From Actinotalea alkalitolerans (GTDB lineage: Bacteria > Actinomycetota > Actinomycetes > Actinomycetales > Cellulomonadaceae): a stretch of 64,000 nt of DNA. Both the position numbers and the translations under genes were made by a program. This document shows positions 14,113-49,845 of this stretch, one piece after another. The notes below the pieces were generated by a model. The model was not told the DNA's origin. It was given only the letters and a program-made list of their open reading frames with translations, and searched no databases. Numbering within the stretch: the stretch's first letter is position 1; each line of letters opens with the position of its first letter. The stretch is taken from NCBI RefSeq assembly GCF_023369855.1, contig NZ_JAMBPP010000012.1, positions 1-64,000 of the forward strand, in the 5' to 3' direction.

Positions 14113-15195
14113 TCACCTCGGTCTGATCATGACCTCGACCGAGCCCAGCACCCGCCCGTTGACCTGGAGCTCCACCCGGTGCGGCCCGGGGCGGATCGTG
14201 CGGATCGAGACGTGGTCGAACCGGTGCCGTTTGGTCACCGTGACCTGGTCGCCGGCGGGCAGGTGACGGCTCGTCAGCTTGAACACCTTGCCCGGTCGCG
14301 GCCCCCGGGCGCCCTGGTAGTGCACGAGGTAGTCGATGGCGGCCCGGGTGTCGTCGGCCGCGCTCAGCGTCGCGGTCAGGGTGACCTCGTCGCCGATGGC
14401 GATCACGTCTGGGCTCACCGTGAGGTCGACCAGCGTGACCGTCGTGGAGTGGCCGTACCCGAGCAGGGCCAGCGCCCGCGGGTCACCGCGCTTGATCAGG
14501 GTGCGCAGCCCGTGCCGGACCACGCCGTCGCCGTGGCTGGACGCTGCCAGCCACCGCTCGGCGCAGGCCAGGGCGAGGTCGGGATGGTCCTTGCTGATGT
14601 CGTTGAGATGGTTGGCCACCGACCGCCGGACGTACGCCGACTCGTCGTCGAAGAGCCGCTCGAGCAGCGCGACGGCCGGCGTCGGGTCGGTGATCAGCCC
14701 GCGCAGCACGGGCGCCCACGGCAGCCGGGGCCGGGTGCCCTCCGACACCAGACGGCGGACGTGCTCGTCCGGGTGAGCGGCCCACTGGTGGAGGTACCGG
14801 AAGGTCACCTCGGGGTGACGGGCGATGAAGGCGCGGATCGGGAACTCGCTGGAGGACCTCCTGGTCAGTCGAGCCAGGAGCGGCAGCGCGATGTCGGGGT
14901 CGTCGATGCCCTGCTGGGCGACGAGCTGCCCGCAGGGCCAGATCATCCAGCCGGTGAACGTCGGCGACTCCAGGGCCCGGTCCAGCACGGCCGCGGCCTC
15001 GGGGAAGGTCGGCGGGAGGCAGAGCGCCAACGCGTCGGCGAGGTGTGCTGCCCGGGCCTTGAGCTCGAGCACCTCCAGGCCCGAGGTCGCGGCGTGCGAC
15101 CAGGTCTCGAGGGGGAAGTCGGTCCAGGCGTTCTGCAGCTCCGAGCCGAGGGCCTGGGCCAGCGCGGGCGAGAGCTCGTCCTTGAAGTCGGCCAT
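14113..15195 (-). CDS. alkC: AlkC-type DNA alkylation repair glycosylase with C-terminal Ig-like domain
   Basis: The 360-residue protein has a HEAT-like helical repeat domain (about 1-235) with the segments SSEFPIRAFIARHPE, HVRRLVSEGTRPRLPW and VRRSVANHLNDISKDHPDL, which I recognise from the AlkC family of 3-methyladenine/3-methylcytosine DNA glycosylases. A beta-rich immunoglobulin-like domain follows (about 250-360), as in several AlkC proteins. It removes alkylated bases without base flipping in the known family. It stands alone, convergent to the mannanase and about 100 bases downstream of the luxR-type gene on the same strand. Confidence 0.85.
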   Translation of the reverse strand: MADFKDELSPALAQALGSELQNAWTDFPLETWSHAATSGLEVLELKARAAHLADALALCLPPTFPEAAAVLDRALESPTFTGWMIWPCGQLVAQQGIDDPDIALPLLARLTRRSSSEFPIRAFIARHPEVTFRYLHQWAAHPDEHVRRLVSEGTRPRLPWAPVLRGLITDPTPAVALLERLFDDESAYVRRSVANHLNDISKDHPDLALACAERWLAASSHGDGVVRHGLRTLIKRGDPRALALLGYGHSTTVTLVDLTVSPDVIAIGDEVTLTATLSAADDTRAAIDYLVHYQGARGPRPGKVFKLTSRHLPAGDQVTVTKRHRFDHVSIRTIRPGPHRVELQVNGRVLGSVEVMIRPR

Positions 15196-15294: not shown

Positions 15295-15903
15295 TCAGCC
15301 CGCCCTGCCGGTCCAGTGCAGGGCTGCGGTGACCCTCGGGTTGAGCGTGGGGTCGGCACGGTCCAGGTCGAGCTTGGCGAACAGGTGCGAGACATGGCAC
15401 TCGACGGTCCGTGGGCTCAGCGAGAGCAACCTGGCGATCCCGGCGTTCGACAGCCCGCTGGCGAGCAGGGCGTACACGGCACGCTCGGTCGCCGTCAGGG
15501 CGGGCTGAGCGACGGCGGGAGCGCCGAGGGTGGCGAGCCACCCGATCACCTGGGACACCGTCGCCGCCTGGGAGATGCTCGTGGCGAGAGGCAGCACGTC
15601 CACGCGGCGCGGGGCGATCGCGTCGGTGAGCGCCTCGCGCCAGTGGTCGGGTTCGTCAGTGAGCACCAGGACGCCCGCACCGCCTACCGCGAGGTCTCCC
15701 AGCGCGTCAGGGTCGGGGCTCGTACCCGGCGCCACCACCACGACGGCATGGTGGTCGCCGTCGAGCTCGTCGGCCGTGGCGGACTCTGCTGCGACCGGCA
15801 CGCCACGGTCACGCAGCTGGAGCACGACGCCGTGCCGCAGCAGCGGGATCCGTCCGACCACAGCCAGTCGCATGAGGTCCCCCAGGGTCCTGACCTGTCC
15901 CAT
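15295..15903 (-). CDS. LuxR-type regulator with degenerate receiver-like domain
   Basis: The 202-residue protein ends in a clear LuxR/NarL helix-turn-helix (LTATERAVYALLASGLSNAGIA, then LSPRTVECHVSHLFAKL, about 136-185). The N-terminal 120 residues have the strand/helix rhythm of a receiver domain, but the phosphorylation-site strand reads AVVVVAPGTS with no Asp. It therefore probably does not respond to a canonical kinase. Starts at 15903 (AGGAG upstream) and 15873 (GGGGA upstream) are both plausible. It is divergent from the giant-protein operon across 125 bases and is its most likely regulator. Confidence 0.8.
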   Translation of the reverse strand: MGQVRTLGDLMRLAVVGRIPLLRHGVVLQLRDRGVPVAAESATADELDGDHHAVVVVAPGTSPDPDALGDLAVGGAGVLVLTDEPDHWREALTDAIAPRRVDVLPLATSISQAATVSQVIGWLATLGAPAVAQPALTATERAVYALLASGLSNAGIARLLSLSPRTVECHVSHLFAKLDLDRADPTLNPRVTAALHWTGRAG

Positions 15904-16028
15904 GGTGCTCCTGACGTGGCGTCCAGGACCAGTCCCATCTCAGTGTTTGCACCGATGACACCCGGCGGGCCGCGTGCCAGTTTCGGAGCAGGCGGACGCA
16001 GTGGTCGCCCTGAACGAGGAGGTGCCAG

Positions 16029-19000
16029 GTGGCACCAGGACCCAGACGTGATCCCGACGACCGGCCGGTACGCCGGCCGCCGGATCCGGACGGCCGGCTC
16101 GACGTCCGCCTGATCCGGCCCGAGGACCTCCTGGACCTGCGACTGTCGGCCGTCGACTGCACCGTCGAGGACGGCGTCGCTGGCCAGGTCCTCGTCGGCC
16201 ATGGCCAGGACGCACGTCTGGTCGTGCACCTGCCGCCGCAGCACGTGGGCGAGCGCGCCTGGTGGGAAGGAGGGTCGGCCGGTGCGGTCTCGGCACACCG
16301 CGTGGCCGCGGCGAGCCGCCTGGTCTTCGCGGTGGGGGACGGCCAGAACGTGCCGTTCACGCTCGAGGGTGTGCTCGGGGCGCTGCCGACCTTGCCGCTG
16401 CGGGTCTCACCGCACGCCGAGCCGGCTGGTACGGCCGGCGAGAGGGCGCCGAGCTGGCCGGGTGGCGTGCTCGTCGGCGACTGGGTCGAGCAGCTCACGG
16501 CCGGAGCGCACGTCGCCGATCTGATCCTCGGCGGCAGCGGCAGCAGGCGGCTGGCCGGTGCCGGGGGTGACGTGCTCGCCCACGTCCGTGCCGCGCGGGT
16601 CCTGCGCGGGTGGGCGCCGCCGAGAGATCTCGTCTCCGGGGTCGGCGTGCACCGCGTCGGCGAGCTCACGGGCGGGTTGGGCGGGTTGCTCGGACGCGGC
16701 GTCAGGCCGGGTGTCGACCGTGGTCCGGGGGGCTTGGGTGACATCCTCAACCCCGGTGGAGGGACGGGCCCCGTCGTGCGGGACCGCCCACGCCCACCGC
16801 GCGACGACGAGACGGCTCTCGAGGTGCCGTACCGGGTGACGGTCTCGCCCAGCGCCCTGGGGGCGTTCACCCACTCGGTCGCCCCGGTGCGCTCGGTCGA
16901 GGACCCGCAGCGCACCGAGCTGTGGCGCACCCACCTGACCGTCCGGACCACCGACGACGAGGGTGCCTTCGTCGGTCATGACCCGACCGACGACGCCCAG
17001 CGGGTCGTCCGTGCGATCTGGTCGCGCGACCTGGACGCGATCGATGCCTCGTCCGCCACCGATCCCGCACCGCTGGCGCCCCAGTCGCTCGCCCCTGCCC
17101 ACCGTCGCGCCCTGGTGCGACAGACCGCCGACCCGCGCGTCGCGGCACGCCGGCCGTTGTCGGTGCGTTCCTTCGCGCTGTCGAGCCTCGGGGCGTGGGT
17201 GGACTGGCAGGGTTCGTGGGACACCGTGGCGCTCGGGGCCCCGCAAGGCGGGGGGAACCTCGTCCAGCTGCTCGAGTCCTACCGGCACCAGGCGGTCATG
17301 GGCCGGGACTCCTACGTCCGGGTGACCATCCCCGGGTTCCTGTTCCCGTTCGGTCACCGGGCGGTGTGGGTGCAGGTCACCGAGCGCAAGGTGCGCGACC
17401 GGTCCCAGGGAACCGCGTACCTCTGGCAGCGGTTCTTCATCATCGTGCGTGAACCCACCCGTACCTACACCGGCCACGACACCCCGCTGACCCGGGTGAC
17501 GCTCGAACCGCTCGTGACCCCCGACCTGGACCCGGCGCCGGACGGCGACGCCGGCGGCCCGTTCGCCCCGTTCGTGCCGCACCGCGGCGGCAAGCCCTTC
17601 GAGTTCTCCCTGGTCAGCGTCGACCAGGGTGGGGGAGCGTCGACGTACGGCGCAGGGCTCCTGTTCGTGCCGCAGGTCTGGGTCGAGCACACCGACGACG
17701 CGACCGCAGCCGCGCAGACCGAGCTGCTCTACGGTCCGGTGCGATCGATCGACGCACGCGGTCAGCAGGTCACCGTCGCCCGGCCGGCCGTCGCCGGCGA
17801 CACGACCCTCGACGTCGACGAGCTGCGCTTCAGCGGCGAGGTGCAACGCGCGACGCTGTCCAGCCGGCCCTACCTGTCCCGGATGCGAGCCGTGGTGCCC
17901 TCGATGCGGCACCTGGCCCCGCACGCGCCCGGCGTGGAGCTGGTGTACCCGCCGCACTTCCTCGCCGCCGGTGACGGCGGCTTCGGTGGCGGCAACCCCG
18001 GTGAGGTCTTCCTCGCGCTCGCCGGGGCGCCTCCGGTGATCGACTTCTCCGGCGGGTCGGACTCCTCGGGCGGCTTCCTGGCGCCGAACATGGCGGTCGC
18101 CGCGCTGTCGAGGGCCTTCGGGGCGGTCGGGGACGACGGCGCCCAGCCCCAGGGGCTGTCGCAGGGAGACTTCGACCCGACGACGTTTCTCGCCGGTGCG
18201 CTGCCCAAGCTGTTCGGTCTGTTCTCGCTGGTCGACGTGCTCGACGCACTCGGTCTCGACGGCGTCCCGGAGTTCGTCACCGAGGCGTTGGACACCGTCA
18301 GCGCGATCGTCACGGAGGCCGACCGGCTGCGGGGCGCCGCTGCCGGCGCGGACCAGCGACTCCTCGACGAGATCGCCGGGGCGGCGCACGACGGTGCCGC
18401 GGCCGGCATCGAGTCGGCGCGTGCCCAGCTCGCGGCCGCGACCGGACCGCTGCTCGACCACCTGGACACGCTGACCGCAGCCGTGCAGGCGCTGCCGGGC
18501 GCCGGCGACCCCGGGACCGCCGTCGGCGCCGTGACCGACGCGCTGGCCGCGGTCGTCACCGACGTCGACCTCCTTCTGGGGGCTTCAGCGGCACCAGCCC
18601 TGCCCTCGCACCTGCGCGCCGCCCTCGAACGGCCGGCCAAGGCCCTGCGGACGCTGGCCGCTGCTGCCGAGACCGTCCAGGCCCTGGCCGACCTGGTCGA
18701 GGACCTGCTCAGCCCGGCGACCGCGGTCACCGCACGGTTCGAGTGGGCACCGAAGATCGTGGGCTGGCCGGCGGGCGCGGAGGTGTTCGTGCCGCACCAG
18801 GACCGTGGGCTGCGCCTGGCCGTCGAGGTTCGGTCCTCGGCCACGACACCGCCGGTCGTCGACGTCTCGGCCGAGATCGTCGACTTCTCGCTCGTGCTGC
18901 TGCCGGGTGAGCCGTTGATGGGCATGCGCTTCCAGCGGATCGGCTTCCGCTCAGGGTCGACGTCCAAACCGGTGGTCGACGTCGTCTTCGGCGGGATCGA

Positions 19001-19727
19001 GTTCCTCGGACCCCTGGCGTTCGTCGACACGCTGCGGCGGATGATCCCGTTCGACGGCTTCGCCGACCCTCCGTACGTCGACGTGTCGCCCGAGGGCGTC
19101 ACCGCTGGCTTCGACCTCGCGCTGCCGAACGTGTCGGTGGGGGTCTTCAGCCTCGAGAACATCGCACTCGGCGCCGACGCCCGCGTGCCGTTCCTGGGCG
19201 ACGCCGTCACCGTCGGCTTCGGCTTCTGCTCCAAGGAGTCGCCGTTCCGGCTCACCGTGATGATGATCGGCGGTGGGGGATGGGTCGCGCTTCGGGCCTC
19301 GCCCAAGGGCCTGGTGCTGCTCGAGGTAGGGCTCGAGGCTGCCGCCTCGCTGTCGATCGACCTGGGGGTCGCGTCCGGGTCGGTCTCGATCTCGGTGGGT
19401 GTCTACCTGCGCCTCGAGGCCGACAAGGGGTCCCTGACCGGGTACTTCCGGATCCGTGGCCAGGTCGACGTGCTGGGCCTGATCTCGGCCTCGATCACCC
19501 TCGAGCTCTCGCTCACCTACCACTTCGACTCGGGCAAGCTCATCGGCCGCGCGTCCTTGGTGGTCGAGGTCGAGGTGCTGTTCTTCTCCGCCTCGGTCGA
19601 GATCACCTGCGAGCGGCAGCTCGCCGGATCGAAGGGTGATCCGGTTCTCGCGGACATCATGCCGCCGGTCGACGGCGCCAACCCGGACTGGTCGCTGTAC
19701 TGCGAAGCCTTCGCGGCGATCGCCTGA
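16029..19727 (+). CDS. Giant protein A, unknown function, beta-rich with Ala-rich helical segment
   Basis: I do not recognise this 1232-residue protein. A strong AGGAGG site lies six bases before the GTG. There is no signal peptide or membrane helix. Residues 1-200 are mixed, 205-250 are Gly-rich (GGLGGLLGRG), and 300-640 are beta-rich. Another Gly-rich patch lies near 645-690. Residues 720-900 are Ala/Leu-rich and helical, possibly coiled. From about 920 to 1205 alternating hydrophobic residues give a long run of predicted strands, with landmarks GFGFCSKESPF near 1062 and SVEITCERQLAG near the end. Only nine bases separate it from giant protein B. Function, location and partners are unknown; a structural or assembly role is speculation. 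Confidence 0.85.
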   Translation: MAPGPRRDPDDRPVRRPPDPDGRLDVRLIRPEDLLDLRLSAVDCTVEDGVAGQVLVGHGQDARLVVHLPPQHVGERAWWEGGSAGAVSAHRVAAASRLVFAVGDGQNVPFTLEGVLGALPTLPLRVSPHAEPAGTAGERAPSWPGGVLVGDWVEQLTAGAHVADLILGGSGSRRLAGAGGDVLAHVRAARVLRGWAPPRDLVSGVGVHRVGELTGGLGGLLGRGVRPGVDRGPGGLGDILNPGGGTGPVVRDRPRPPRDDETALEVPYRVTVSPSALGAFTHSVAPVRSVEDPQRTELWRTHLTVRTTDDEGAFVGHDPTDDAQRVVRAIWSRDLDAIDASSATDPAPLAPQSLAPAHRRALVRQTADPRVAARRPLSVRSFALSSLGAWVDWQGSWDTVALGAPQGGGNLVQLLESYRHQAVMGRDSYVRVTIPGFLFPFGHRAVWVQVTERKVRDRSQGTAYLWQRFFIIVREPTRTYTGHDTPLTRVTLEPLVTPDLDPAPDGDAGGPFAPFVPHRGGKPFEFSLVSVDQGGGASTYGAGLLFVPQVWVEHTDDATAAAQTELLYGPVRSIDARGQQVTVARPAVAGDTTLDVDELRFSGEVQRATLSSRPYLSRMRAVVPSMRHLAPHAPGVELVYPPHFLAAGDGGFGGGNPGEVFLALAGAPPVIDFSGGSDSSGGFLAPNMAVAALSRAFGAVGDDGAQPQGLSQGDFDPTTFLAGALPKLFGLFSLVDVLDALGLDGVPEFVTEALDTVSAIVTEADRLRGAAAGADQRLLDEIAGAAHDGAAAGIESARAQLAAATGPLLDHLDTLTAAVQALPGAGDPGTAVGAVTDALAAVVTDVDLLLGASAAPALPSHLRAALERPAKALRTLAAAAETVQALADLVEDLLSPATAVTARFEWAPKIVGWPAGAEVFVPHQDRGLRLAVEVRSSATTPPVVDVSAEIVDFSLVLLPGEPLMGMRFQRIGFRSGSTSKPVVDVVFGGIEFLGPLAFVDTLRRMIPFDGFADPPYVDVSPEGVTAGFDLALPNVSVGVFSLENIALGADARVPFLGDAVTVGFGFCSKESPFRLTVMMIGGGGWVALRASPKGLVLLEVGLEAAASLSIDLGVASGSVSISVGVYLRLEADKGSLTGYFRIRGQVDVLGLISASITLELSLTYHFDSGKLIGRASLVVEVEVLFFSASVEITCERQLAGSKGDPVLADIMPPVDGANPDWSLYCEAFAAIA

Positions 19728-19736
19728 GGAGACCCG

Positions 19737-22700
19737 ATGACCACCACACACCTGCTGACCACCGCCCTGCCGGCGTCCCGTGGTGCGCGCGACCGCGTGC
19801 ACCTCACCGCGTTCGTCACCCACAAGCTCGTCCCTGATGCGGCCGACGCGACCCTGGCGGACTTCCCGGCCGCGCTGGACTGGGTGTCCACCCTTCAGGC
19901 CGGCAGGTTCGAGCTCCTCGCCTCCCACCTGGCCGGGCCGGTGCCCCTGACGGTCGTGCCCGACGCCGATGCCGCCGCGTGGCGGGCGGTGTTCCCGCCG
20001 CACGTCCCGGTCGAGGGGTATCCCGCACCGACGGTCTCGACCGCACCGTGGCGCTCCTTCCCTGCACACCGCACCGGTGACGGTGCGGTGGACCTGCATC
20101 TCCTGCAGCTCACCGCGGCCCCCACGTCCACCCCCGGGGTGGTGGGCAGCCCGGTCCTGTCCGGCGTCGTGCAGGTGCTCGCCGAGGTCTCGGTCGCGGT
20201 GCGGGAGCTGCTCACCATGGCCGAGCGCCGCTCACGGCGGGCCGAGGACCTCCTCGCACGCCGGACCCAGGAGGCGCAGGCCTCGCTCGGCCTGGTCCGT
20301 GAGGCGCACGGGTACCCCACCAGAGACCAGACGACGGCGTCGGCGATCGAGGTGCTGCTCGCCGATGCCGAGGCGGACACGGCGATCACCCAGTACCTCG
20401 ACTCCCTCGTCGGCCAGGACCTCTCGGGGGCCCCTGAGCTGCAGCTGCTCGTCGACGCGCACACCGCCCGGCGCTTCTACCAGCGGCCCGAGGCCGAGTA
20501 CGCCTACCGCGACCGACCCGTCGAGGGTGCCGCCGCGCCGCGCCCGGAGCGGCCGAACCCTGACTTCCATGCCCGTGCCGCGTCGTTCGGGTCCACCCCC
20601 GTCATGCTCCGCAGGCTCGGCCTCGCGGTCGACCTGCGTGTCGAGGATGCCGACGTCCGGACCGGCCTGGACGCTGCCACCTGGCTCGCGGTGCGGTTCG
20701 TGCCGGGTCCGGACGCAGACGTCACGGTGCTGGCACACCCACGCACGCAGGTCGTGGTGCGTGGCGATGTCGTCACCGCCCGGTCCAGCGACGCCTGGGT
20801 GGCGGGGGCGCTGCCGCTCGGTGACGAGACCTACGTCGTCCTGGACGTCGACCCCGATGCCAGCGGCCTCAAGACCGAGCAGCACCTGCGTGACCTGCCG
20901 CGGACCTTGGCGGCAGAGGTCAACGGTGACCCGGCGACCTCTGCCCCGGCCACGCTGCGCTCCACGGGCTTCGCGATCGCCCGGACCGACCGTGTCGAGA
21001 CCACCAGGACGCAGGTCGCCCGGGCCGAGGCGATGACCTCACCCGTCGAGGGAGCGGGCGCCGTCGGTCCGGACCTGCTCTACGACGACCTGGTCCGCGG
21101 GCTACGGGTCGAGGTCTGGGACGACGTGACCCGGACGTGGCACAGCCTGCACGAGCGTCGGGTCACGGCGACGGCCGACCCCGGCACCGGTGCGATCACC
21201 GTGCTCGACGACGAGCCGGACGTCGGCTTCCTCCAGCTCAGCGGTCTCCACCGGGTCCCGGGCCCTGACTCCAACCCGTACTACCTGCACGAGGTGATCG
21301 CCGGGTGGGACGGCTGGAGCCTCTCGGCCCCACGCCCGGGAAGGGTCGTCGTACGTGACGGTGCGACCGAGACGGTCGTGGACGCCCCGACGGACCCGCC
21401 CGCGACGGGTGTCGCGCTGCGCACGAGGGTCGAGCCGGGATCCCTGCCGCGGCTGCGGCACGGCACCTCGTACGCGTTCCGTGTGGTCGGGGTGGACCTG
21501 GCCGGTGGTTCGGTCCGAAGGACCGGTCCGCGGCGCCCTGTCGCGATGCCGGCCGGTGGCGACGCGCCGGCAGCTGCCCGTGAGCACCTGGAGCGCCTAC
21601 GGGGCGTGTACCGGGAGCGGGACACCAGGCTGCTGGGTGCGGCTCGGGACCGGGTGCTCGATGCCCTTCCCGTCGCAGAGCCCGGGCCCGACTGGCGCAC
21701 CACGCTGACGTGGCTCTCGGCGCACGAGCCCCCGCAGGCAGGTTCCGGTGCCGTCGCGGGCTCACCCGCTGAGCGCGTGGCCGCCGTGGTGCCCGAGGCG
21801 GTCCGTACCGGTGACCTGGCGATCGACGCCGTCATCGCGGACCGCATCTCCACCGGGGCGGCTGGGGCATCGATGACCTCCGATGCCGCGATGGCCCTGC
21901 GCGCAGCCGCAGCCGGCACCCACCACCTCGCGGCCGGGGCCGGCACATGGCGGGTCCGGCCCCAGCTCGAGGTCGACCCGGGCACGTTCGCCGCGCTCTG
22001 GGCCCTCGACGACCTCGTCGTCGGGCCCGGTGCGCTGCCACCGTCACGCGCGGTGGTCACCACCCCCAGACCCTTCCTGCGGTGGGACCCCGTCCCGCCC
22101 CCGAGCCTGGTGGCCCGCGCGCCGCTGACCACCGGTGAGCAGCTGTCGAGGATCGTGGTCCGCAGCGGGCTGGACACAGGCTCTCCCGATGCGGTCGCGA
22201 CGAGCGAGCGCCACGTCGTCCCGGCGAAGGCGACGCAGACCGACGCCGAGCTGGCAGGACGCTTCGACGAAGCGATCGGCTCACCGGACCCCGACGTGCA
22301 GCGGGTCGCCTACGGCTGGGCGCTGCGTGAGAGCGGCACCCTGCTCGATCGATGGATACCCGACCCCGCGAACCCCGGCGGTGTCGTGGAGCAGCCGGGC
22401 ATCGCACTGCATCAGCGGCCCGGCGCGAACCCCGACACGCTCGTCACGCTCGCCGACATCACCGACCACCGTGACACCCCGCTCGGCGAGGGCCAGTACG
22501 TGGTGCACGACGTCGACGAGCTCGTCGTGCCCTACCTTCCCGACCCGTACGCCGCCGGGGTGGCGCTGGTGTTCTACGACGCCGGCGCCCCCCACCTGCT
22601 GCCCGAGCCGCGGGTGCTTCAGGCAGTCACGGTCCCGTTCGCCGGGTCGTGGCCGCGAGGACGTCCGCTGCGGCTGGTCGTGGAGGCCGCCGGTGCGGAC

Positions 22701-24560
22701 GAGGAGCTCGGCGCCGTCGTGGAGGAGCTCGGTGCGGGTGGAGGGGGCACCGTGGTGCGGGTCCGGCTGCCGGCCGGACTGCAGGTCAGGGTGGCCATGT
22801 CGAGCTCGATGCGCCGCGAGGACCTCGACCGGTTCGGGCTGTGGCGCTCGCACCTGGCGAGCACCGTCGACCCGGACGGGGACGGTGGCGCCACCCCCGA
22901 GGACGTCGTGGCTGCGGCTGCGCTCGTGCGGGCCGCGGTGAACGGCTGGACGTGGTGGTTGACGCCGTCGGTCGACCTGCGTCTCGTGCACGCCGTGCCG
23001 GCGCCGGTCAGGCCGCCCGCGATCGAGGCGTTGCGCTGCCTGCTGCGCCCACCGGGGCTCACCGTCGCCCAGCTCGCCGGCCTGGTGGACGTGCACGGAC
23101 CGAGCACCGACCGGCTCGTGGTGCGGGCGTCGTGGACCGAGCAGGTGGACGACCTCGCTGCGCCTGGCCCGACGACGGTCGCCCGCGACGACGTCGTGGT
23201 GAGCTCGCCGGTCTCTGCGGGGCAACGGACCGGACTGCTGACCATGGTGGACTTCCAGCCCTTCGGCCCCAGCGCCGACATGCTCGCGCTGGCCGGTGGG
23301 GGTGTGGGTCTGCACCGTGCGATCCAGACCTTCCCCGACACCCACCACCGCCGGGTCACCTACACCCCCAGCGGTCTGACGCGCTACGCCGAGATGTTCG
23401 CTGCGCAGGACGTCCCCGAGCCCCAGGACCCGCTGCTCGCCGGCGAGCCGGTCACCCTGGAGATCCCGAGCTCTGCCCGTCCCGCGGCACCCGACCTCGT
23501 CGACGCCGTGCCGTTGCTGCGGTGGGAGGAGACCACGGAGCCGGACCAGCCGTTCGCGCTGCGCCGGGTGCGTCGCTCGGGCGTGCGGCTCTGGCTGCGT
23601 CGACCCTGGTTCTCCTCGGGTGACGGAGAGCTGCTCGGTGTCGTCGTGTCGCGCACCGGCCACGAGCCGGACGCGACGATCAGCCTCTGGGGCCGTGACC
23701 CGACGGTCCTCGGCGCGGCGACGGGTCCGGCGACCCTGCCGCCGCTGCTGCGGGCGGGGCACCTGCTGGTCCAGATGGTGGGTGGTACCACGCTGGACGA
23801 ACCGGCACGCCCCGTGCTGCCGGTCGCCGCGGTACCGCTCGTCGACCTCGCCGGCGCGCCGGTGGCCAGCGTGCTGGCCTACCGCCCGGAGTACCACCCG
23901 GAGCGTGGCCTGTGGCACGTCGACATCGCGCTGGACGACGGCCCGGCGTTGTGGCCGTTCGTGCGTCTCGCCGTCGGCCGCTACCAGCCGGACTCGATCG
24001 AGGGGTGCGCGCTGTCGGCCGTCGGTCTCACGTCGTGGGTCCAGCCGTTGCCGACGCGCACCGCGACCGTCAACCGACCGGACGAGGACCATGTGCGGGT
24101 CACCGTCACGGGTGCCGTCGCGTTCCTCCGGACTCCTCGACGTGGTGAGGACGGTCCCCGTTCCGCCGGTGACGACCTCGACGCCGACACCCCTACCGGC
24201 GCGGCCGCTGCGTTCGACGCGCTGCTCGCGCAGTCCAGGACGATGCACGCCAGCGTCCAGGTCCTCCCTGACGGTGCGGGTGACCTGGGGTGGGTGACGG
24301 TCGCCGAGCGCCGGCTCCCGGCGGTCGGGGTGGGCGACGAGTCGAGCTTCCGGGTCACCTGGAGCGGCGGGCTCGACCTGCCCGCCCCGCATGCCCGGCC
24401 GGCACCCCTCGAGCTGCGGACCCCCGGGGATCAGCCCCGGTGGCGGGTGCTCATCGAGGAGCGCGAGCTGCTCGACGCGGACCCGGTGGACCGGCCCAAC
24501 GCCAGCGGGGCGACATCGATCACGCCGCGGGTGGTCTACGCCGACGCCGTCGTGCTCTGA
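19737..24560 (+). CDS. Giant protein B, unknown function, 1607 residues
   Basis: I do not recognise this protein. An AGGAGA site precedes the ATG, and the nine-base gap to giant protein A implies co-translation. No signal peptide or membrane helix is seen. A helical, charged stretch lies at about 140-230. Fibronectin-III-like features (LRHGTSYAFRVVGVDLAGG) occur near 568-590, inside a beta-rich part from about 440 to 610. A helical insert follows (610-760), then alternating beta-rich segments to the end. Cysteines are nearly absent and no catalytic motif stands out. High-GC codon use matches neighbours, so recent foreign origin is not indicated. A large extended or multi-domain scaffold is the most that can be inferred. 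Confidence 0.85.
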   Translation: MTTTHLLTTALPASRGARDRVHLTAFVTHKLVPDAADATLADFPAALDWVSTLQAGRFELLASHLAGPVPLTVVPDADAAAWRAVFPPHVPVEGYPAPTVSTAPWRSFPAHRTGDGAVDLHLLQLTAAPTSTPGVVGSPVLSGVVQVLAEVSVAVRELLTMAERRSRRAEDLLARRTQEAQASLGLVREAHGYPTRDQTTASAIEVLLADAEADTAITQYLDSLVGQDLSGAPELQLLVDAHTARRFYQRPEAEYAYRDRPVEGAAAPRPERPNPDFHARAASFGSTPVMLRRLGLAVDLRVEDADVRTGLDAATWLAVRFVPGPDADVTVLAHPRTQVVVRGDVVTARSSDAWVAGALPLGDETYVVLDVDPDASGLKTEQHLRDLPRTLAAEVNGDPATSAPATLRSTGFAIARTDRVETTRTQVARAEAMTSPVEGAGAVGPDLLYDDLVRGLRVEVWDDVTRTWHSLHERRVTATADPGTGAITVLDDEPDVGFLQLSGLHRVPGPDSNPYYLHEVIAGWDGWSLSAPRPGRVVVRDGATETVVDAPTDPPATGVALRTRVEPGSLPRLRHGTSYAFRVVGVDLAGGSVRRTGPRRPVAMPAGGDAPAAAREHLERLRGVYRERDTRLLGAARDRVLDALPVAEPGPDWRTTLTWLSAHEPPQAGSGAVAGSPAERVAAVVPEAVRTGDLAIDAVIADRISTGAAGASMTSDAAMALRAAAAGTHHLAAGAGTWRVRPQLEVDPGTFAALWALDDLVVGPGALPPSRAVVTTPRPFLRWDPVPPPSLVARAPLTTGEQLSRIVVRSGLDTGSPDAVATSERHVVPAKATQTDAELAGRFDEAIGSPDPDVQRVAYGWALRESGTLLDRWIPDPANPGGVVEQPGIALHQRPGANPDTLVTLADITDHRDTPLGEGQYVVHDVDELVVPYLPDPYAAGVALVFYDAGAPHLLPEPRVLQAVTVPFAGSWPRGRPLRLVVEAAGADEELGAVVEELGAGGGGTVVRVRLPAGLQVRVAMSSSMRREDLDRFGLWRSHLASTVDPDGDGGATPEDVVAAAALVRAAVNGWTWWLTPSVDLRLVHAVPAPVRPPAIEALRCLLRPPGLTVAQLAGLVDVHGPSTDRLVVRASWTEQVDDLAAPGPTTVARDDVVVSSPVSAGQRTGLLTMVDFQPFGPSADMLALAGGGVGLHRAIQTFPDTHHRRVTYTPSGLTRYAEMFAAQDVPEPQDPLLAGEPVTLEIPSSARPAAPDLVDAVPLLRWEETTEPDQPFALRRVRRSGVRLWLRRPWFSSGDGELLGVVVSRTGHEPDATISLWGRDPTVLGAATGPATLPPLLRAGHLLVQMVGGTTLDEPARPVLPVAAVPLVDLAGAPVASVLAYRPEYHPERGLWHVDIALDDGPALWPFVRLAVGRYQPDSIEGCALSAVGLTSWVQPLPTRTATVNRPDEDHVRVTVTGAVAFLRTPRRGEDGPRSAGDDLDADTPTGAAAAFDALLAQSRTMHASVQVLPDGAGDLGWVTVAERRLPAVGVGDESSFRVTWSGGLDLPAPHARPAPLELRTPGDQPRWRVLIEERELLDADPVDRPNASGATSITPRVVYADAVVL

Positions 24561-42994: not shown

Positions 42995-44155
42995 CTAGAA
43001 GCCCAGCTCACGGGCGATGACCATCAGCTGCACCTCGGTCGTCCCCTCGCCGATCTCGAGCACCTTGGCGTCACGGTAGTGACGGGCGACCGGGTTCTGG
43101 TTGAGGAACCCGTAGCCACCGAAGACCTGGGTCGCGTCACGGGCGTTGTCCATCGCAGCCTCGCTGCCGATGAGCTTGGCCAGGCTCGCCTGCATCTTGA
43201 ACGGCTTGCCCGCCACGATCCGGTGGGCGGCGTCGTAGTAGGCCAGCCGGGCAGCGTGCACCCGCGCCTGCATCCGCGCGATCTTGAAGGCGATGTGCTG
43301 GTTCTCGCCGATCGTCCGCCCGAACACGGTGCGCTTGCGCGCGTACCGGACGGCCTCCTCGAGGCAGCCCTGGGCCGCCCCGGTGCACAGTGCGGCGAAG
43401 GCGACACGACCCTCGTCCAGGGTCTGGATGAAGTTGGCGAACCCGCGACCACGCACGCCCAGCATGTTGGCCTCGGGGACACGGACGTCGTCGAGCGACA
43501 GCGGGTGGGTGTCCGAGGTGTGCCATCCGACCTTGTCGTAGGCCGGTCCGACCGTCAGACCTGGGGTGCCACTGGGGACGAGGAAGGCCGTGAGCTCCTT
43601 CTTGACCGTGCCGTCCACCCGCGTGGTCTCGCCGGTCACCGCGGTGACCGTGATCAACCGGGTGATGCGGGTCCCCGAGTTGGTGATGAACTGCTTCGAC
43701 CCGTCGATCACCCACTGACCGTCCTCGAGCCGAGCCGTGGTCCGGGTTCCCGCAGCGTCCGAGCCGGCGTCGGCCTCGGTCAGGCCGAACGCCGCGAGCG
43801 CCCGGCCCTGGGCCAGCATCGGCAACCACTCCTCCTTCTGCGCCTGCGTGCCGCCCCGCCACACGGGCATCGCCCCCAGCCCGACCCCGGCCTCCAGGGT
43901 CACGGCGATCGACTGGTCCACACGGGCGAGCTGCTCGACCGCCAGGCACAGCTGGAAGTAGTCCTTGCCCTGGCCGCCGTACTCGCGCGGGAACGGGAGG
44001 CCGAACAGGCCCATCTCGCCCATCTGGGCGAGGATCGCGTAGGGCAGCTCTCGACGGGTGTCGTACTCGTAGGCGGCCGGGGCGACGACGCTGTCGGCGA
44101 AGTCCCGCACGGTGTCGACCAGTCCCTGCTGCTCGCTGGTGAGCTCGTGACTCAT
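42995..44155 (-). CDS. Acyl-CoA dehydrogenase (isovaleryl-CoA type)
   Basis: The 386-residue protein carries LTEADAGSDAAGTRTTA (FAD and substrate signature), the FAD-binding segment RKRTVFGRTIGENQHIAFKIARMQ, and GGYGFLNQNPVARHYRDAKVLEIGEGTTEVQ. The ATG at 44155 overlaps the carboxylase stop; the much longer open frame upstream is false. Position after the carboxylase subunits supports isovaleryl-CoA or 2-methyl-branched acyl-CoA as substrate. Electrons would pass to electron-transfer flavoprotein encoded elsewhere. Confidence 0.92.
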   Translation of the reverse strand: MSHELTSEQQGLVDTVRDFADSVVAPAAYEYDTRRELPYAILAQMGEMGLFGLPFPREYGGQGKDYFQLCLAVEQLARVDQSIAVTLEAGVGLGAMPVWRGGTQAQKEEWLPMLAQGRALAAFGLTEADAGSDAAGTRTTARLEDGQWVIDGSKQFITNSGTRITRLITVTAVTGETTRVDGTVKKELTAFLVPSGTPGLTVGPAYDKVGWHTSDTHPLSLDDVRVPEANMLGVRGRGFANFIQTLDEGRVAFAALCTGAAQGCLEEAVRYARKRTVFGRTIGENQHIAFKIARMQARVHAARLAYYDAAHRIVAGKPFKMQASLAKLIGSEAAMDNARDATQVFGGYGFLNQNPVARHYRDAKVLEIGEGTTEVQLMVIARELGF

Positions 44156-46209
44156 GGGGGCGTCCCTTCGTGGGGGTGGGGGGTGATGGTGGCCACCACC
44201 TCGTCGAACCTCACCCGGTCGGCCGGTCGGGCCGTGAGGGTGACGACACCGCCGGTCGTGGCGGCGAGCCTGTGCTCCATCTTCATCGCCTCGACGGTCA
44301 GCAAGGGCTGACCTGAGGTGACGTGGTCGCCCGTGACGACGTGGACCGCGACGACCGTCCCGGGCATCGGGGAGCGGACCTCGGGGTCCGCGGCGCCCTC
44401 GGGCCGGGTGATCAGGGAGAGCTCCTCGGCGAGCCGGTCCGCACGGCCACGGATCCTCAGCTCGAAGGCCGACCCGTCGTGACCGATCCAGGTGCGGTCG
44501 CCCTCGGTCGCGACACGGACCCTGCGCGTGATCCCGTCCACCTCGACGACGGCGACGTCCGGCCCGCAGCGGTCCAGATGGGCGCGGACGGGTGCGGAGT
44601 CGCCGACGGTGACGGTCGCGGTGCCTGGGGGCCCCAGGACGGACACGTCCAGGTTGGCACCGGCCCCTGTGGACACCTCGACGTGGGTGGGCCGATCGTC
44701 TCCCAGACGCCATCCGTCGACGCGCCATGGGTCCGTGGGGCCTCGCCGACCGTGCGGAGGCTGTGAGGTGGCGCACGCCCAGAGCGCAGCGGTGACGAGG
44801 TCGGTGCGGTCGGGTGCGGGCAGGTCGAGGCCGGGGAGGCATCGCTGGAGGAGGTCCGTGTCGAGCTCTCCGGACCGGACCCGGGGCTCGGCCAGGAGCC
44901 GGCGCAGGAACGCGATGTTGGTGTGCACACCCAGGACGGAGGTGGAGGCCAGGGCGGTGTCCAGGCGGGCCAGCGCCTGGTCGCGGTCGTGCCCCCACGC
45001 GATCACCTTGGCCAGGAGCGGGTCGTAGCTCGGGGTGAGGACCTGGCCCGGCAGCAGACCGCTGTCGACCCGGACACCCTCACCGGTCGGCTCCTCGAGC
45101 AGCAGGACCGTCCCCGTGGTGGGCAGGAAGCCGCGGGCGGGGTCCTCGGCGTACACCCGGGCCTCGACCGCGTGACCGGTCATCTCTACGTCCTCCTGCC
45201 CGAAGGTCAGGGCCTCACCGGCCGCGACCCGGAGCTGCCACTCGACGAGGTCGATCCCGGTGACGAGCTCGGTCACGGGGTGCTCGACCTGGAGCCGGGT
45301 GTTCATCTCGAGGAAGAAGAAGTCGCTGGGGGAGTCGTTCGACACGAGCATCTCGACGGTCCCGACGCCCAGGTACCCGACGCTGCGCGCGACCGCGCAC
45401 GCCTGCTCACCGAGCCGGCGCCGTGTGTCGGGGTCGAGCAGCGGCGACGGCGCCTCCTCGACCACCTTCTGGTGGCGCCGCTGGAGCGAGCACTCGCGCT
45501 CACCCAGGTGGATCACCGACCCGTGGGCGTCGGCGAGCACCTGGACTTCGATGTGACGCGGCGAGGGCAGGTGGCGCTCGAGCAGGAGGGAGTCGTCGGC
45601 GAAGGCGGACCGCGCGACCCGCCGAGCGGTGAGCAGCGCCTGCGGGAGGTCGTCCGGGTGCTCCACGACCTGCATCCCGATGCCTCCGCCACCGGCCGAG
45701 GGCTTGACGAGCAGCGGGTGACCGACCTCGTGAGCCGCGAGGACCAGCTGCTCGTCGCTGAGTCCCGGCTCGGCCACCCCGGGGATCACGGGGACCCCGG
45801 ACCGCTGGACGTGGGCCTTGGCGCGGATCTTGTCGCCCATGATCTCGAGGGCCGCGATCCCGGGTCCGACGAAGACGAGGCCGGCGTCGGTGCAGGCCCG
45901 TACCAGGTCCGTGCTCTCGGACAGGAACCCGTAGCCCGGGTGGACCGCCTGGGCACCGGTCCGACGTGCGGCGGCGATCACCGCCTCGACGTCCAGGTAC
46001 CCGGGATCGCTGCCGGCGTCACCCAGACGCACCGCGGTGTCGGCCATGGTGACGTGCTTGGCGCCGCGGTCCGCGTCGCTGTGCACGGCGACCGAACGGA
46101 TGCCCATCCGCTGCAGCGTGCGGATCACCCGGCAGGCGATCTCGCCGCGGTTGGCCACCAGGACGGTCTGCAGGCGGACAGGGGACGGGGTCGAGGTCAT
46201 GGTGCTCAC
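44152..46209 (-). CDS. Biotin-dependent acyl-CoA carboxylase alpha subunit (methylcrotonyl-type)
   Basis: The 685-residue protein contains a biotin carboxylase domain ([50 protein letters not shown]), a BT linker domain and a C-terminal biotinyl domain with Lys643 in EAMKMEH. It starts at a GTG that overlaps the stop of the carboxyltransferase gene. With the beta subunit upstream it should carboxylate 3-methylcrotonyl-CoA in leucine breakdown; propionyl- or geranyl-CoA are alternatives. Confidence 0.92.
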
Positions 46210-47813
46210 ATCCGGAACAGGCCGAGGGCCGGCCGGTCGAGCGGGACCGTGGAGCAGATGTCCAGAGCCATCCCCAGCACCCTGCGGGTGTCGGCGGGAT
46301 CGATGATCCCGTCGTCCCAGAGCCGCGCGGTCGAGTAGTACGGGCTGCCCTGGCTCTCGTACCGGTCACGGATCGGGGCACGGAACCCGGCCTCGTCCTC
46401 GGCCGACCACTCCTGCCCCCGTGACTCGACCTGCTCGCGGCGGATCGTGGCGAGCACCGACGACGCCTGCTGCCCGCCCATGACCGAGATGCGGCTGGCG
46501 GGCCACGTCCACAGGAAGCGCGGCGAGTAGGCACGGCCGCACATCGAGTAGTTGCCCGCGCCGAAGGAGCCGCCGATCACCACGGTGAGCTTGGGGACCC
46601 GGGTGGTGGCGACCGCGGTGACCATCTTGGCCCCGTTCTTGGCGATGCCCCCGGCCTCGTAGTCCTTGCCGACCATGAAGCCCGAGATGTTCTGCAGGAA
46701 GACCAGGGGGATGCCACGCTGGTCGCAGAGCTCGATGAAGTGGGCGCCCTTGAGCGCGGACTCGCTGAACAGCACCCCGTTGTTGGCCACGACTCCCACC
46801 GGGTGCCCGTGCAGACGGGCGAACCCGGTGACCAGGGTGGTGCCGTACTCGCGCTTGAACTCGTGCAGCTCGCTCGCATCGACCAGTCGGGCGATGACCT
46901 CGCGCACGTCGTAGGGGGACTGCACGTCGACGGGGACCAGGCCGTAGAGGTCACTCTCGGGCGCGGCCGGCCCTCGGCCCTGGTGGACCTCCCAGGCGGT
47001 GGTGCGGGGGGCCGGGAGCGTGCTGATGATGTCCCGCACGATCTGGAGCGCGTGCGCGTCGTTCTCGGCGAGGTGGTCGGTGACCCCCGAGGTGCGGGAA
47101 TGGAGCTCTCCGCCGCCGAGCTCCTCGGCGCTGACGACCTCGCCGATGGCGGCCTTCACCAGCGGGGGCCCGCCCAGGAAGATCGTGCCCTGGTTGCGGA
47201 CGATCACGGTCTCGTCGCTCATCGCGGGCACGTAGGCGCCGCCGGCGGTGCACGAGCCCATGACGCAGGCGACCTGGGGTATCCCTGCCGCCGACATACG
47301 GGCCTGGTTGAAGAAGATGCGTCCGAAGTGGTCGCGGTCGGGGAAGACCTCGTCCTGCAACGGCAGGAAGGCACCGCCCGAGTCGACGAGGTAGACGCAC
47401 GGCAGCCGGTTCTCGAGCGCGATCTCCTGCGCGCGGAGGTGCTTCTTGACGGTCATCGGGTAGTAGGTGCCACCCTTGACGGTCGCATCGTTGGACAGCA
47501 CCATCACGTGCCGCCCGTGGACCAGGCCGATCCCGGCGATGACACCAGCGGCGGGGGCCTCGTCGTCGTACATGCCGTGGGCCGCGAGCGCGCCGATCTC
47601 CAGGAAGGGGCTGCCGTCGTCGAGGAGCACGTCGATGCGGTCGCGCGGCAGCAGCTTCCCTCGGGTGACGTGCCGTTCGCGCGAGGACGGGGGGCCGCCC
47701 AGGCTTGCCGCGCGCAACCGGTCGCGGAGCTCGACGACCAGGGCGCGTTGTGCCGCCTCGTTCTGCTCGAACGGGGGCGCGCCGCGGTCGGTCGTGGTGG
47801 GCAGTGTCTCCAT
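46206..47813 (-). CDS. Acyl-CoA carboxylase beta subunit (methylcrotonyl-type carboxyltransferase)
   Basis: The 535-residue protein is of the AccD1/MccB class: [30 protein letters not shown] at the start, [36 protein letters not shown] for acyl-CoA binding, and [23 protein letters not shown] in the second half. The length and FLEIG motif favour methylcrotonyl-CoA over propionyl-CoA carboxylases. It is first in the minus-strand operon and divergent from the TetR gene across an operator-like palindrome. Confidence 0.92.
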
Positions 47814-47848
47814 CGACGCCGCTTCCTTGAGGACCCTGAGGTCGCCTG

Positions 47849-47866
47849 AGTTAACGCTCGCTAACT
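47849..47866. promoter_or_regulatory. TetR-type operator in the carboxylase/regulator control region
   Basis: AGTTAACGCTCGCTAACT is an 18-base inverted repeat with arms AGTTA-CG and CG-TAACT. It lies 36 bases before the carboxyltransferase start and about 50 before the TetR gene, the position of an autoregulatory TetR site. The related TTAACG half suggests recognition of TNAGCG/TNAACG repeats. Confidence 0.7.
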
Positions 47867-47914
47867 GAACTGACGCTAGTGTGCACGGACGGGGTTGTCC
47901 ACGCAGGGAAGGGC

Positions 47915-48544
47915 GTGAGTCGTGTGAGGGTCGAGGTGGGAGAGGTGGCGTCGGTGCGCCCGACCTCCGCCCGGCACCGGGCCAAGGCCGATCGCCGGGC
48001 GACCCTGCTGACCGAGGCGAGCCGGCTCTTCGCCCGACGAGGCTTCGACGGCGTCTCGATCGAGGACCTCGGTTCGGCGGCCGGTGTCAGCGGACCCGCC
48101 GTCTACCGGCACTTCCCCAGCAAGCAGGCCGTGCTCGCCGCGCTGCTCGTGGGCGCGAGCGAGCGACTGGTGACCGGCGGCCATGAGGTGGTCGCCGAGG
48201 CAACCGACGACACTGCGGCCCTCCGATCGCTCATCAGGTTCCACGTCGAGTTCGCCCTGGCCGACCCTGACGTGATCCGGGTCCAGGACCGAGACCTCGA
48301 CTCGCTCGCCGAGCCCGAGCGGCGGGCGGTGCGCGGCCTGCAGCGCCGCTATGTCGAGCTCTGGGTCGCCGTCCTGACCCGGCTCGAGCCCGAGGTCGAC
48401 CCGGCCGAGCTGCGGATCCGCACCCACGCCACGTTCGGGCTCCTCAACTCCACGCCGCACAGCGCCCGCTCGCTGCCACGCTCCCGCGTCGGTTCGCTGC
48501 TCGAGGAGATGGCCCTCGCCGCGCTGGGACGCCCCGCCCCCTAG
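47915..48544 (+). CDS. TetR-family regulator of the leucine-degradation operon
   Basis: The protein has about 209 residues. A TetR helix-turn-helix ([42 protein letters not shown]) is followed by a helical ligand domain containing [10 protein letters not shown] and [27 protein letters not shown], which is common in regulators of acyl-CoA genes. The likely inducer is an acyl-CoA. The start is uncertain: GTG codons at 47879, 47915 and 47924 are in frame, and 47915 follows a GGGAAG stretch. Its stop codon overlaps the stop of the convergent E2 gene in a shared CTAG. Confidence 0.88.
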
Positions 48545-49842
48545 ACCATCGTCAGGACCCGCGCCGGGCGGGCCAGGACCGTGCCGACATCGGCGAGGAA
48601 GCGTGACGCCTGCTCTCCGTCGACCAGCCGATGGTCGAACGAGAGGCTCAGCGTCATCACCTGGCGCAGCGCGACCTCGCCCTGGTGCTCCCACGGCAGC
48701 CTTCGGACGGCTCCGACCGCCAGGATCACGGCCTCGCCGGGGTTGAGGATCGGTGTCCCCGCATCGATCCCGTAGACCCCGATGTTCGTCACCGAGAGGG
48801 TGCCGTCCCGCAGGTCGGCAGGTGACGTCGTCCCGGCGCGGGCGGCGTCGGTCAGCGCGGTCAGCGCCTGTGCGAGCCCCGCGAGGTCGAGCCCGTCCGC
48901 GTCCTTGATGTTCGGCACCAGGAGGCCCCGTGGGGTGGCGGCCGCGATGCCGAGGTTGACGTAGCCGAACTGCACGATCTCGCCGGCCTCCTCGTCCCAG
49001 CGGGAGTTGACAGCCGGGTGACGGCGCGCCGCGAGGGTCACCGCCTTGGCCACGATCGTCAGGACCGTGATCCGGCTGCCCGAGAGCTCCCGGTCCTGGC
49101 GGAGCTCCTCGACGAGCTCGACAGCAGCGGTGGCGTCGATCGTCAGGAACTCCGTGGCGTGCGGCGCGGTGAACGCGCTGGCGACCATCGCGGCCGCGGT
49201 GTGCTTGCGCACCCCGGTGATGGGGGTGCGCACCTCCCGCGGTGCGGCCTCCCTACCGCCTTCCGCTGCCCCCACCGCGGTCCGCTCCAGCGGGCCCGCG
49301 AGGTCTCTCGCACGCGTCAGCACGTCGTCCCTGGTCACCAGTCCGCCCTCGCCAGAGCCGTCGACCGAGGCCAGGTCGACCCCGAGCTCCTGGGCGAGCT
49401 TGCGGACCGGAGGGAAGGAGCGCGGCCGGTCACCGCGCCTCCGCCCCGGGGCAGTGGGCACGGGAGCGGAGCTCGGCGTCGCGGACCAGGCCGACCCGCG
49501 AGCGCGCCGACGAGGACGGTCCGCCGCCTCGACCCGCGGGCCGTACCCCACCAGCACCGCGTTCCGACCCGAGCTGGCCGTCGTGGCCCCGGCCGAGGTG
49601 GCACCGACGTCGATCGCCAGGATCGGCGCACCCACCGGAACCGTCGCACCCGGCTCGACGAACAGCCGTGCCACCGTCCCGGCGTAGGGGCTGGGCAGCT
49701 GGACGAGCGCCTTGGCCGTCTCGACCTCGGCGATCACCTGGTTCAGCTCGACGGTGTCGCCCACCGCGACCTTCCACTCCAGAAGGTCGGACTCGGTCAG
49801 TCCCTCACCGAGGTCGGGCATCGCGAACTCCTCGACCGCCAT
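48541..49842 (-). CDS. bkdC: Branched-chain 2-oxoacid dehydrogenase E2 (dihydrolipoyl acyltransferase)
   Basis: The 433-residue protein has one lipoyl domain with Lys44 in VETAKALVQLP, an Arg/Pro-rich linker (about 105-140), an E1/E3-binding domain (PPVRKLAQELGVDLASVDGSGEGGLVTRDDV) and a catalytic domain with the active-site His404 in FDHRLVDG. It transfers the branched acyl group to CoA. It is three bases downstream of E1beta, and no E3 gene follows, so E3 is supplied from elsewhere. Confidence 0.92.
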   Translation of the reverse strand: MAVEEFAMPDLGEGLTESDLLEWKVAVGDTVELNQVIAEVETAKALVQLPSPYAGTVARLFVEPGATVPVGAPILAIDVGATSAGATTASSGRNAVLVGYGPRVEAADRPRRRARGSAWSATPSSAPVPTAPGRRRGDRPRSFPPVRKLAQELGVDLASVDGSGEGGLVTRDDVLTRARDLAGPLERTAVGAAEGGREAAPREVRTPITGVRKHTAAAMVASAFTAPHATEFLTIDATAAVELVEELRQDRELSGSRITVLTIVAKAVTLAARRHPAVNSRWDEEAGEIVQFGYVNLGIAAATPRGLLVPNIKDADGLDLAGLAQALTALTDAARAGTTSPADLRDGTLSVTNIGVYGIDAGTPILNPGEAVILAVGAVRRLPWEHQGEVALRQVMTLSLSFDHRLVDGEQASRFLADVGTVLARPARVLTMV

Positions 49843-49845
49843 GTC

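Follow-up and report, generated by a model that had tools for sequence, protein, structure and literature searches.

Two kinds of described systems come closest to the locus that we report here. In Tat hitchhiker complexes, known from hydrogenases and enzymes like them, a subunit that lacks a leader leaves the cell together with a signal-bearing partner. Large lipid-transfer proteins, on the other hand, are built from a beta domain, a helical part and long amphipathic sheets in that order. Further points of comparison are wall-anchored surface proteins as well as phage tails and contractile injection systems (CIS), in both of which LysM domains occur. Our analysis of two very large adjacent genes of Actinotalea alkalitolerans, A and B, shows partial likeness to each of these systems, and the pair represents a real and mobile two-gene family that is apparently undescribed.

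The DNA that was analysed as a whole, here called the window, comprises 64,000 nucleotides and lies on contig C3 of a 4.37-Mb genome. Gene A (16,029–19,727, + strand) has a GTG start and encodes 1232 aa, and gene B (19,737–24,560, + strand) has an ATG start and encodes 1607 aa. Both are intact frames on the same strand, spaced by nine bases, and their coordinates are exactly those given by a previous reading of the sequence alone (the sequence-only reading). The ribosome sites which it had called upstream of both genes correspond to AGGAGG (16,017–16,022, +), 6 bases 5′ of the GTG of A, and GGAG (19,728–19,731, +), 5 bases 5′ of the ATG of B. The third-position G+C content of A (0.90) and B (0.89) is typical of other called genes in the window, and homologues from our genome scan are 48–82% identical to A and 44–73% identical to B in the alignments used, indicating that both are genes and not shadow frames. 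The open frame of A spans 1237 aa and thus has only five in-frame codons 5′ of the start. In line with the sequence-only reading, inspection of the starts of the window's A and B revealed neither a signal peptide nor a Tat motif, and no long transmembrane helix was found in either protein (best 19-residue Kyte-Doolittle mean 1.72 for A and 1.86 for B). The scarcity of lysine in B (3 of 1607 residues) was considered as a clue and rejected, since this residue is equally rare in a number of other genes within the window; in most relatives, B is poorer in lysine than A.

Searches for a known family gave little for either protein. The window's A and B match no family of Pfam (at E up to 1) or NCBIfam, and with a PADLOC threshold of E 0.1 neither A and B nor the S. 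meliloti pair gave a match. Among the PHROGs, there was none for B, none for four proteins of relatives and a single match at E 0.44 for A. PDB sequences yielded no meaningful match to A or B, with one match at E 0.54, and profiles of the pair performed no better against the PDB than single sequences. A comparison of 27 A C-terminal domains with Pfam produced only two stray matches, one member each, and 36 A frames scanned at E up to 0.01 matched only LysM types, Phage_tail_X and Apolipoprotein. The vitellogenin-type N-terminal family was detected neither in the window's A at E up to 1 nor among the 36 A frames. Profile comparison between A and B gave no indication of shared ancestry (probability 0.5%). 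Full-text literature searches with narrow term sets found no paper on the pair, a result which does not by itself show its absence from print. The view that the pair is not part of any recognised system therefore holds for Pfam, NCBIfam and PADLOC families and for meaningful PDB sequence matches, and the phage tail, eCIS and S-layer families, to which homology had been named as evidence that would speak against this view, matched neither of the window's proteins. No known family or system can be assigned to the pair, and the underlying kind may still prove familiar.

Of 52 loci compared among Actinomycetota, Alpha- and Betaproteobacteria, 48 have A immediately upstream of B and in the same orientation. 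The 52 loci were derived from 56 by removal of three duplicates (L083, L085, and L087) and by counting L009 and L069 as one, because they belong to the same genome in which the pair is apparently split between contigs; the 48 include L059, L062, and L065, which were completed in a further step. The four non-scored loci comprise one whose contig starts inside B (L014) and three in which divergence prevents scoring with the B profile (L064, L093, and L094). A large same-strand frame is found 3′ of A in each of these three. In L032, B corresponds to two annotated genes of which only the second matches the B profile, and L016 carries two A–B pairs in tandem. The distance matrices of A and B correlate with r = 0.966 over 35 pairs, compared to 0.372 for the best of 2000 permutations. 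Eight same-genus genomes were searched for both genes: four harbor both and four harbor neither. Fragments of B were found at contig bases 2–2626 of the same-genus genome G008 (residues 730–1606, 73% identity) and at contig bases 2–2629 of Actinotalea ferrariae L009 (72% identity). The joint occurrence of A and B across phyla agrees with the proposal of the sequence-only reading that they are a two-protein unit.

Among 99 relatives, 5 carry A, as do 13 of 396 genomes in a phylum sample, and the profile of its C-terminal domain matched 13 of 396 genomes in an order sample; the window's genome is part of all three counts. In the B scan of bacterial and archaeal genomes, 80 stretches fit a search pattern, 17 of which encode a relative. 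Plasmid-borne pairs were detected in Cupriavidus, Diaphorobacter, Rhizobium, Sinorhizobium, Agrobacterium, Ruegeria, and Streptomyces, whereby Proteobacteria were covered by plasmid records and by the B genome scan. Where annotated, the plasmid copies are listed as hypothetical proteins. A quick-method tree of A with 49 rows places the same-genus G001 with G417 of another family (support 99) and two Rhizobium rows with the Betaproteobacteria Cupriavidus and Diaphorobacter (support 100). As the tree crosses taxonomy, the pair seems to be transferred horizontally as one unit, that is, as a cassette.

Protein A starts with a module (16,104–16,418, +; residues about 26–130) which carries a conserved PPQHxxE motif and is followed by a variable linker. 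Its middle domain contains the well-conserved core motif GRDxYV..FPFGHR..TER (17,298–17,387, +; residues 424–453), which is recognisable even in the Alphaproteobacterial giants, 3000-aa proteins of S. meliloti and Ruegeria; the domain around this motif was modelled with pLDDT values mostly between 80 and 90. The sequence-only reading had described a helical belt followed by alternating strands, and we find the same order, with the belt at residues about 725–890 (18,201–18,698, +) and the strands at residues about 928–1199. The length of the belt, measured from a KLFGLF-type motif to the C-terminal domain, varies among relatives: it amounts to 144–186 residues in L060, L067 and the clade of the window, 261–264 residues in Cupriavidus, Diaphorobacter, and Rhizobium WYJ-E13, and 910–1049 residues in the three Alphaproteobacterial giants where it is measurable. 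In short members such as L029 (973 aa as annotated), the belt is apparently nearly missing; in members of this type the motif lies near the C-terminal domain and the motif search gave no length. The C-terminal domain itself (18,696–19,724, +; residues 890–1232) is the best conserved part of A and was modelled as a meander of long amphipathic strands, at low confidence since the strands mostly have a pLDDT of about 60 or lower. The beta-periodic moment of residues 1040–1200 is 0.440, compared to 0.252 (sd 0.030) in shuffled sequences, none of which (0/1000) reaches this value. Six successive strands in this region (1096–1199) have a hydrophobic face with a mean KD of 2.2 to 3.5 and a polar face with −0.9 to −2.7.

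The N-terminal start of B is conserved among relatives, and an FN3-like strand motif, LRxGxxYxFRxxxVDLAG (21,450–21,512, +; residues 572–592), is recognisable in most aligned relatives. A helical insert (21,534–22,046, +; residues about 600–770) is restricted to the 25-row clade that holds the window. Further downstream, the C-terminal half is modelled as FN3/Ig-like, with two tandem domains of this type at residues about 1087–1441 (22,995–24,059, +), where fold comparison with VIA-align identified tandem FN3 pairs with a weak best Z of 7.4. Thus, the fibronectin-like segments proposed from sequence reappear in the fold comparison but have no counterpart in a Pfam FN3 match, and the similarity goes no further than a common arrangement would give. 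The folds of both proteins are tentative because of the low mean pLDDT of their models (53.6 for A and 58.8 for B). Moreover, most VIA-align rows pair A with helix bundles of a generic kind (Z up to 12.1, around model residues 677–868) and B with FN3 pairs, so that this comparison hardly bears on other parts of the two proteins. A coupled length of the A belt and the B insert was also considered and rejected, as the insert is missing where the belt is longest; the two lengths show no joint variation, so that no contact between them is indicated.

Divergent from A, and separated from it by an intergenic region of 125 bases (15,904–16,028), is the gene of a LuxR-type (GerE) regulator of 202 aa (15,295–15,903, − strand; Pfam GerE 1.8e-12), as had been noted from the sequence. 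Compared to NarL/FixJ (LuxR-type) response regulators, the protein has the GerE DNA-binding domain, and for the receiver domain no Pfam Response_reg match was obtained at E up to 1. Its best NCBIfam match is NarL (2.9e-8, residues 61–181), with 33 bits against a cut-off of 250. This match thus takes in some of the N-terminal half. Genes closely related to the regulator lie near the pair in four other loci; they are divergent in L010, L015, and L023, and in L002 the gene shares the strand of the pair, from which it is separated by a single gene. Weaker LuxR-type matches occur in L011, L018, and L089. For the stretch between regulator and A, an alignment of four sequences revealed no callable common operator. 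That the regulator is dedicated to the pair gains support from the four loci, but this support is weaker than that for the pairing of A and B.

To survey the neighbourhood, up to two flanking genes of 110–900 aa on each side were collected from all loci except the three duplicates and L064, L093, and L096, which gave 157 proteins, 144 of which were scanned (13 were left out owing to size or doubtful gene calls). The commonest Pfam family was GerE, with 5 of 144 proteins (among the 25 commonest of 150 families), and clusters of related neighbours have at most four members. A conserved third partner was thus rejected, as 5 of 144 proteins is the highest count reached by any neighbour family and third genes are found in single lineages only. 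These include a peptidoglycan-binding/protease-like gene in Nocardia and a small beta protein in L057/L058. Defence-like neighbours are scattered single genes, and no defence model matches more than 3 of 144; together with the lack of PADLOC matches for the A and B proteins, this led us to reject a role in anti-phage defence. Likewise, a phage or viral origin was rejected, since no homologue was found in phage records and viral contigs contain no close relatives of the C-terminal domain of A. The repeats listed in the region are short and imperfect.

The genome of the window contains two sheath and two baseplate-J matches, all on other contigs (C35 and C30), and none on contig C3. Within the genus, a sheath gene was detected in 3 of 4 tested genomes with the pair and in 0 of 14 without it (G009, a same-genus genome without the pair, was left out of this count), a small sample in which shared ancestry and genome size are uncorrected. 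Over all genomes, a sheath match accompanies an A match in 11 of 27 cases (10 of them over the family cut-off), compared to 10 of 55 genomes without an A match. The association with CIS is a weak lead.

While the window's copy is leaderless, Tat signals are present on A in several relatives. A strict script detected them in 6 of 52 A-labelled frames (L028, L030, L031, L032, L054, and L055) and in 0 of 51 B frames, and two further A proteins (L065 and L095) were judged by eye to carry one. By count this is a modest excess over the background of 24 of 685 other frames of crude gene calls. In the 35-row clade holding the window no Tat signal was found, whereby some rows, e.g., L069, lack the N-terminus. 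In S. meliloti (L030), an annotated TatA/TatE gene is located directly 3′ of B. The pair of L054 is the most informative one: its A starts with MPNPSELPPPSFAFGRRRLLQGG, a Tat signal in which FGRRRLLQGG is followed by a hydrophobic stretch, and its B, which begins 37 bases after the stop of A with MSQLTWTVLPNG, is signal-less and ends in CWB2 repeats, three by reading of the sequence. The underlying match (CWB2, PF04122, 2e-46) occurred in 1 of 36 B frames and was assigned to L054 by its pattern and by sequence reading. Hence, in L054 the signal is found on A only and the wall-binding repeats on B. As a wall-binding module is presumably useful only outside, L054 B should leave the cell.

Independent fusions in other lineages point the same way. 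In Nocardia crassostreae (L017), A has three LysM domains at its start (1.4e-41) and no Tat signal, and this LysM-like start also accounts for a match to Phage_tail_X (1.4e-8). B of Streptomyces nigrescens (L096) contains an internal PG_binding_1 domain (1.8e-4, one bit below the Pfam cut-off), and no signal is visible on the corresponding A. In L016 and L017, moreover, a gene read as peptidoglycan-binding appears to adjoin the pair. Wall-binding modules are seldom fused to the proteins: in the Pfam scan (fragments included), one was present in 1 of 39 frames for A and in 2 of 40 for B, and Pfam detected none in the window's A or B. The combination typical of S-layer or wall-anchored proteins, a signal peptide plus a wall-binding module, is therefore lacking in the window, while both elements are present across the L054 pair.

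We propose that A and B are two subunits of one large envelope complex which is encoded by a mobile two-gene cassette, the explanation with the best support, to which we give an even chance. Both proteins would fold and assemble in the cytoplasm, and in the deep branches the Tat-signal-bearing A would be exported in its folded state with the signal-less B carried along by hitchhiker export. Outside, the complex would be tethered to the cell wall, a task served in some lineages by extra wall-binding modules. The C-terminal sheet of A could present one continuous hydrophobic face that meets lipid, membrane or B, the helical belt might serve as a spacer of adjustable length, and the FN3/Ig-like domains of B might form an elongated arm. 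Complex formation and hitchhiking in the family are inferred, and so is the wall location of the window's own copy, which has neither a signal nor a wall-binding module and for which we rely on relatives because its 35-row clade showed no Tat signal. We do not file this copy as a member of the Tat-hitchhiker class, since its A has no Tat motif and only the five in-frame codons upstream. A more far-reaching version, which we regard as possible but doubtful, holds that such pairs are an undescribed class of horizontally moving envelope machines that assemble in the cytoplasm, are exported folded by Tat and combine interchangeable wall tethers, a tuned arm and a lipid- or membrane-handling sheet, with the window's branch being placed without a known signal. 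The tuned helical arm of such machines would range from nearly nothing to about 1050 residues.

Compatible with the envelope complex, and more specific, is the idea that the pair carries lipid or another hydrophobic ligand, where A would be like lipid-transfer or TULIP-type proteins, with its C-terminal sheet lining a lipid cavity, and B would be the partner. We consider such a carrier possible but doubtful, and a lipid- or membrane-facing role is the specific guess that we prefer at a similarly low level of confidence. The two-faced nature of the six successive strands fits with this idea, and the sole PDB match of A below 1e-3 in Foldseek is microsomal triglyceride transfer protein (4e-4, prob 0.38), followed lower in the list by the OrfX1–OrfX3 complex (0.026) and ApoB100 (0.3). 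However, with a TM of 0.07/0.09 and an rmsd of 34 Å on a low-confidence model, the match to the transfer protein reflects only the order of elements, and porins and other barrels appear in the same list with weaker E values (0.07 and up). What many of A's fold matches, i.e., the transfer protein, porins and the SprA barrel, have in common are long amphipathic strands in one sheet. Pfam Apolipoprotein was matched in 2 of 36 A frames (best 5.3e-5), and the same domain underlies the annotation of a distant candidate from Rhizobium (L093, tblastn E 0.03); matches of this kind can arise from any long amphipathic helix. On two plasmids phospholipase genes are near the pair: in Rhizobium L026 an annotated patatin phospholipase is encoded 3′ of B with one short gene between, and in Ruegeria L031 an annotated phospholipase C-like gene lies 5′ of A with two small genes between, but phospholipases are not conserved neighbours (Patatin 2 of 144).

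The sequence-only reading had favored a scaffold or particle, here taken as intracellular or released. The lack of a signal peptide in the window's copy and the presence of two large, beta-rich components are consistent with this, and the two-protein unit on which the idea was built has stood. In contrast, no capsid, sheath, tube or compartment family was matched by sequence, as little as a phage, contractile or S-layer one, the four best viral fold matches have rmsd values of 32 to 41 Å, phage records and viral contigs were searched in vain as described above, and relatives bear Tat signals and wall-binding modules. We therefore regard a scaffold or particle as unlikely; what is seen in relatives speaks instead for a complex that is exported and associated with the cell wall.

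Even less does the evidence suggest a toxin-like antagonist, in which the strands of A would insert into a membrane as a sheet or pore-forming barrel and B would target this structure. Its alternating strands have polar faces rich in Ser, Thr, Glu, and Arg, porins, BcsC, and SprA are found in the Foldseek and VIA lists (SprA with Z 9.3, rmsd 3.8, 110 aligned), and the distribution is patchy and mobile. Yet every neighbour family is limited to 5 of 144 flanking proteins at most, so that there is no conserved immunity or secretion partner, and the negative Pfam, NCBIfam, and PADLOC searches likewise weigh against this role, which we consider quite improbable. Finally, that the pair is cargo or an accessory of a CIS encoded elsewhere in the genome appears very unlikely despite the sheath counts given above, since a sheath match is missing from 16 of the 27 genomes that have an A match, which means that a sheath is not required, and since the 25 commonest of the 150 neighbour families include neither a sheath nor a tube family.

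Three aspects make the pair of interest. A pair of giant proteins that moves between distant bacteria as one unit is probably useful, yet it is absent from the libraries used here. The measured belt length varies about seven-fold, which provides a natural experiment on spacer function. Moreover, among relatives one partner bears a Tat signal and the other a wall module, which makes complex formation and export directly testable. To our knowledge, the pair would, if confirmed, be among the largest Tat passengers proposed, as a heteromer.

How does the pair compare to known systems? With eCIS and phage tails it shares very large leaderless proteins and, in one relative (L017), LysM domains, but the contig of the window has no sheath or baseplate-J match and no meaningful PHROG match was found. 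To microsomal triglyceride transfer protein and ApoB, A has no detected sequence homology and, at an rmsd of 34 Å, no meaningful superposition; the likeness consists of a weak Foldseek match and of the order beta domain, helical part and amphipathic sheets. The conserved bodies of A and B match no family of wall-anchored surface proteins and the window's copy has no module, whereas three lineages have an A or B that carries CWB2, LysM, or PG_binding_1 as a fusion. In contrast to Tat hitchhiker complexes, the pair matched no known redox or cofactor family, both subunits exceed 1000 aa, and the window's branch has no Tat signal that we found; like them, L054 combines an A with a Tat signal and an adjacent leaderless B, which carries a wall-binding module.

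A and B were not always found as single frames in the loci compared. The B gene is divided among several frames in Nocardia crassostreae (locus L017, 9872-13925) and in an Actinomycetota MAG (L018, 10854-14044), which may reflect either decay or misassembly, and A is represented by two annotated genes in L026 and by two frames in L056. The pieces were searched separately.

Several relatives carry a further gene downstream of B. In two Nocardia loci the position directly after B is occupied by a 308-aa gene (L016, 6335-7261; L017, 13949-14872), whose product, judging from motifs recognized by eye, looks like a peptidoglycan-binding domain joined to an HExxH-like protease. Actinotalea ferrariae has a gene for a 1190-aa protein at this position (L009, 2666-6238), which we read, again by eye, as a PhoD-like phosphatase; no relatives of this gene were found among the loci compared. 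In two Actinomycetota that are distant from each other (L057, 16245-17198; L058, 15782-17497), B is followed by a gene for a protein of ~300 aa, the two proteins forming a small family; inspection by eye of L057 showed a Cys-rich C-terminal part in this protein as well as a hemopexin-like gene further on.

Defence-type genes were also seen near the pair. Annotated dpdE/dpdF genes lie immediately after it in Agrobacterium vitis (L032, 27663-32489), and other Rhizobium copies or candidates of the pair have restriction or SIR2-type genes nearby. Overall, each defence model matched at most three of the 144 scanned neighbours of the pair.

Within the window itself, a gene for a HEAT-repeat or DNA-alkylation-repair-like protein (14113-15195, minus strand; below Pfam cut-offs) lies beside the divergent LuxR-type regulator. 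Judging from their start sequences, the frames at 44152-50853 resemble a gene cluster for branched-chain keto-acid dehydrogenase and acyl-CoA carboxylase.

The genome of A. alkalitolerans furthermore harbors two contractile-injection-like clusters, on contigs C35 (L102, 50000-69999) and C30 (L103, 5000-24999), each with one sheath (PF04984) and one baseplate J (PF04865) match; a frame that appears tube-like by eye is also present in these clusters. Within the genus, sheath genes occur along with the A-B pair: three of the four genomes with the pair have one, compared to none of the 14 tested genomes without it.
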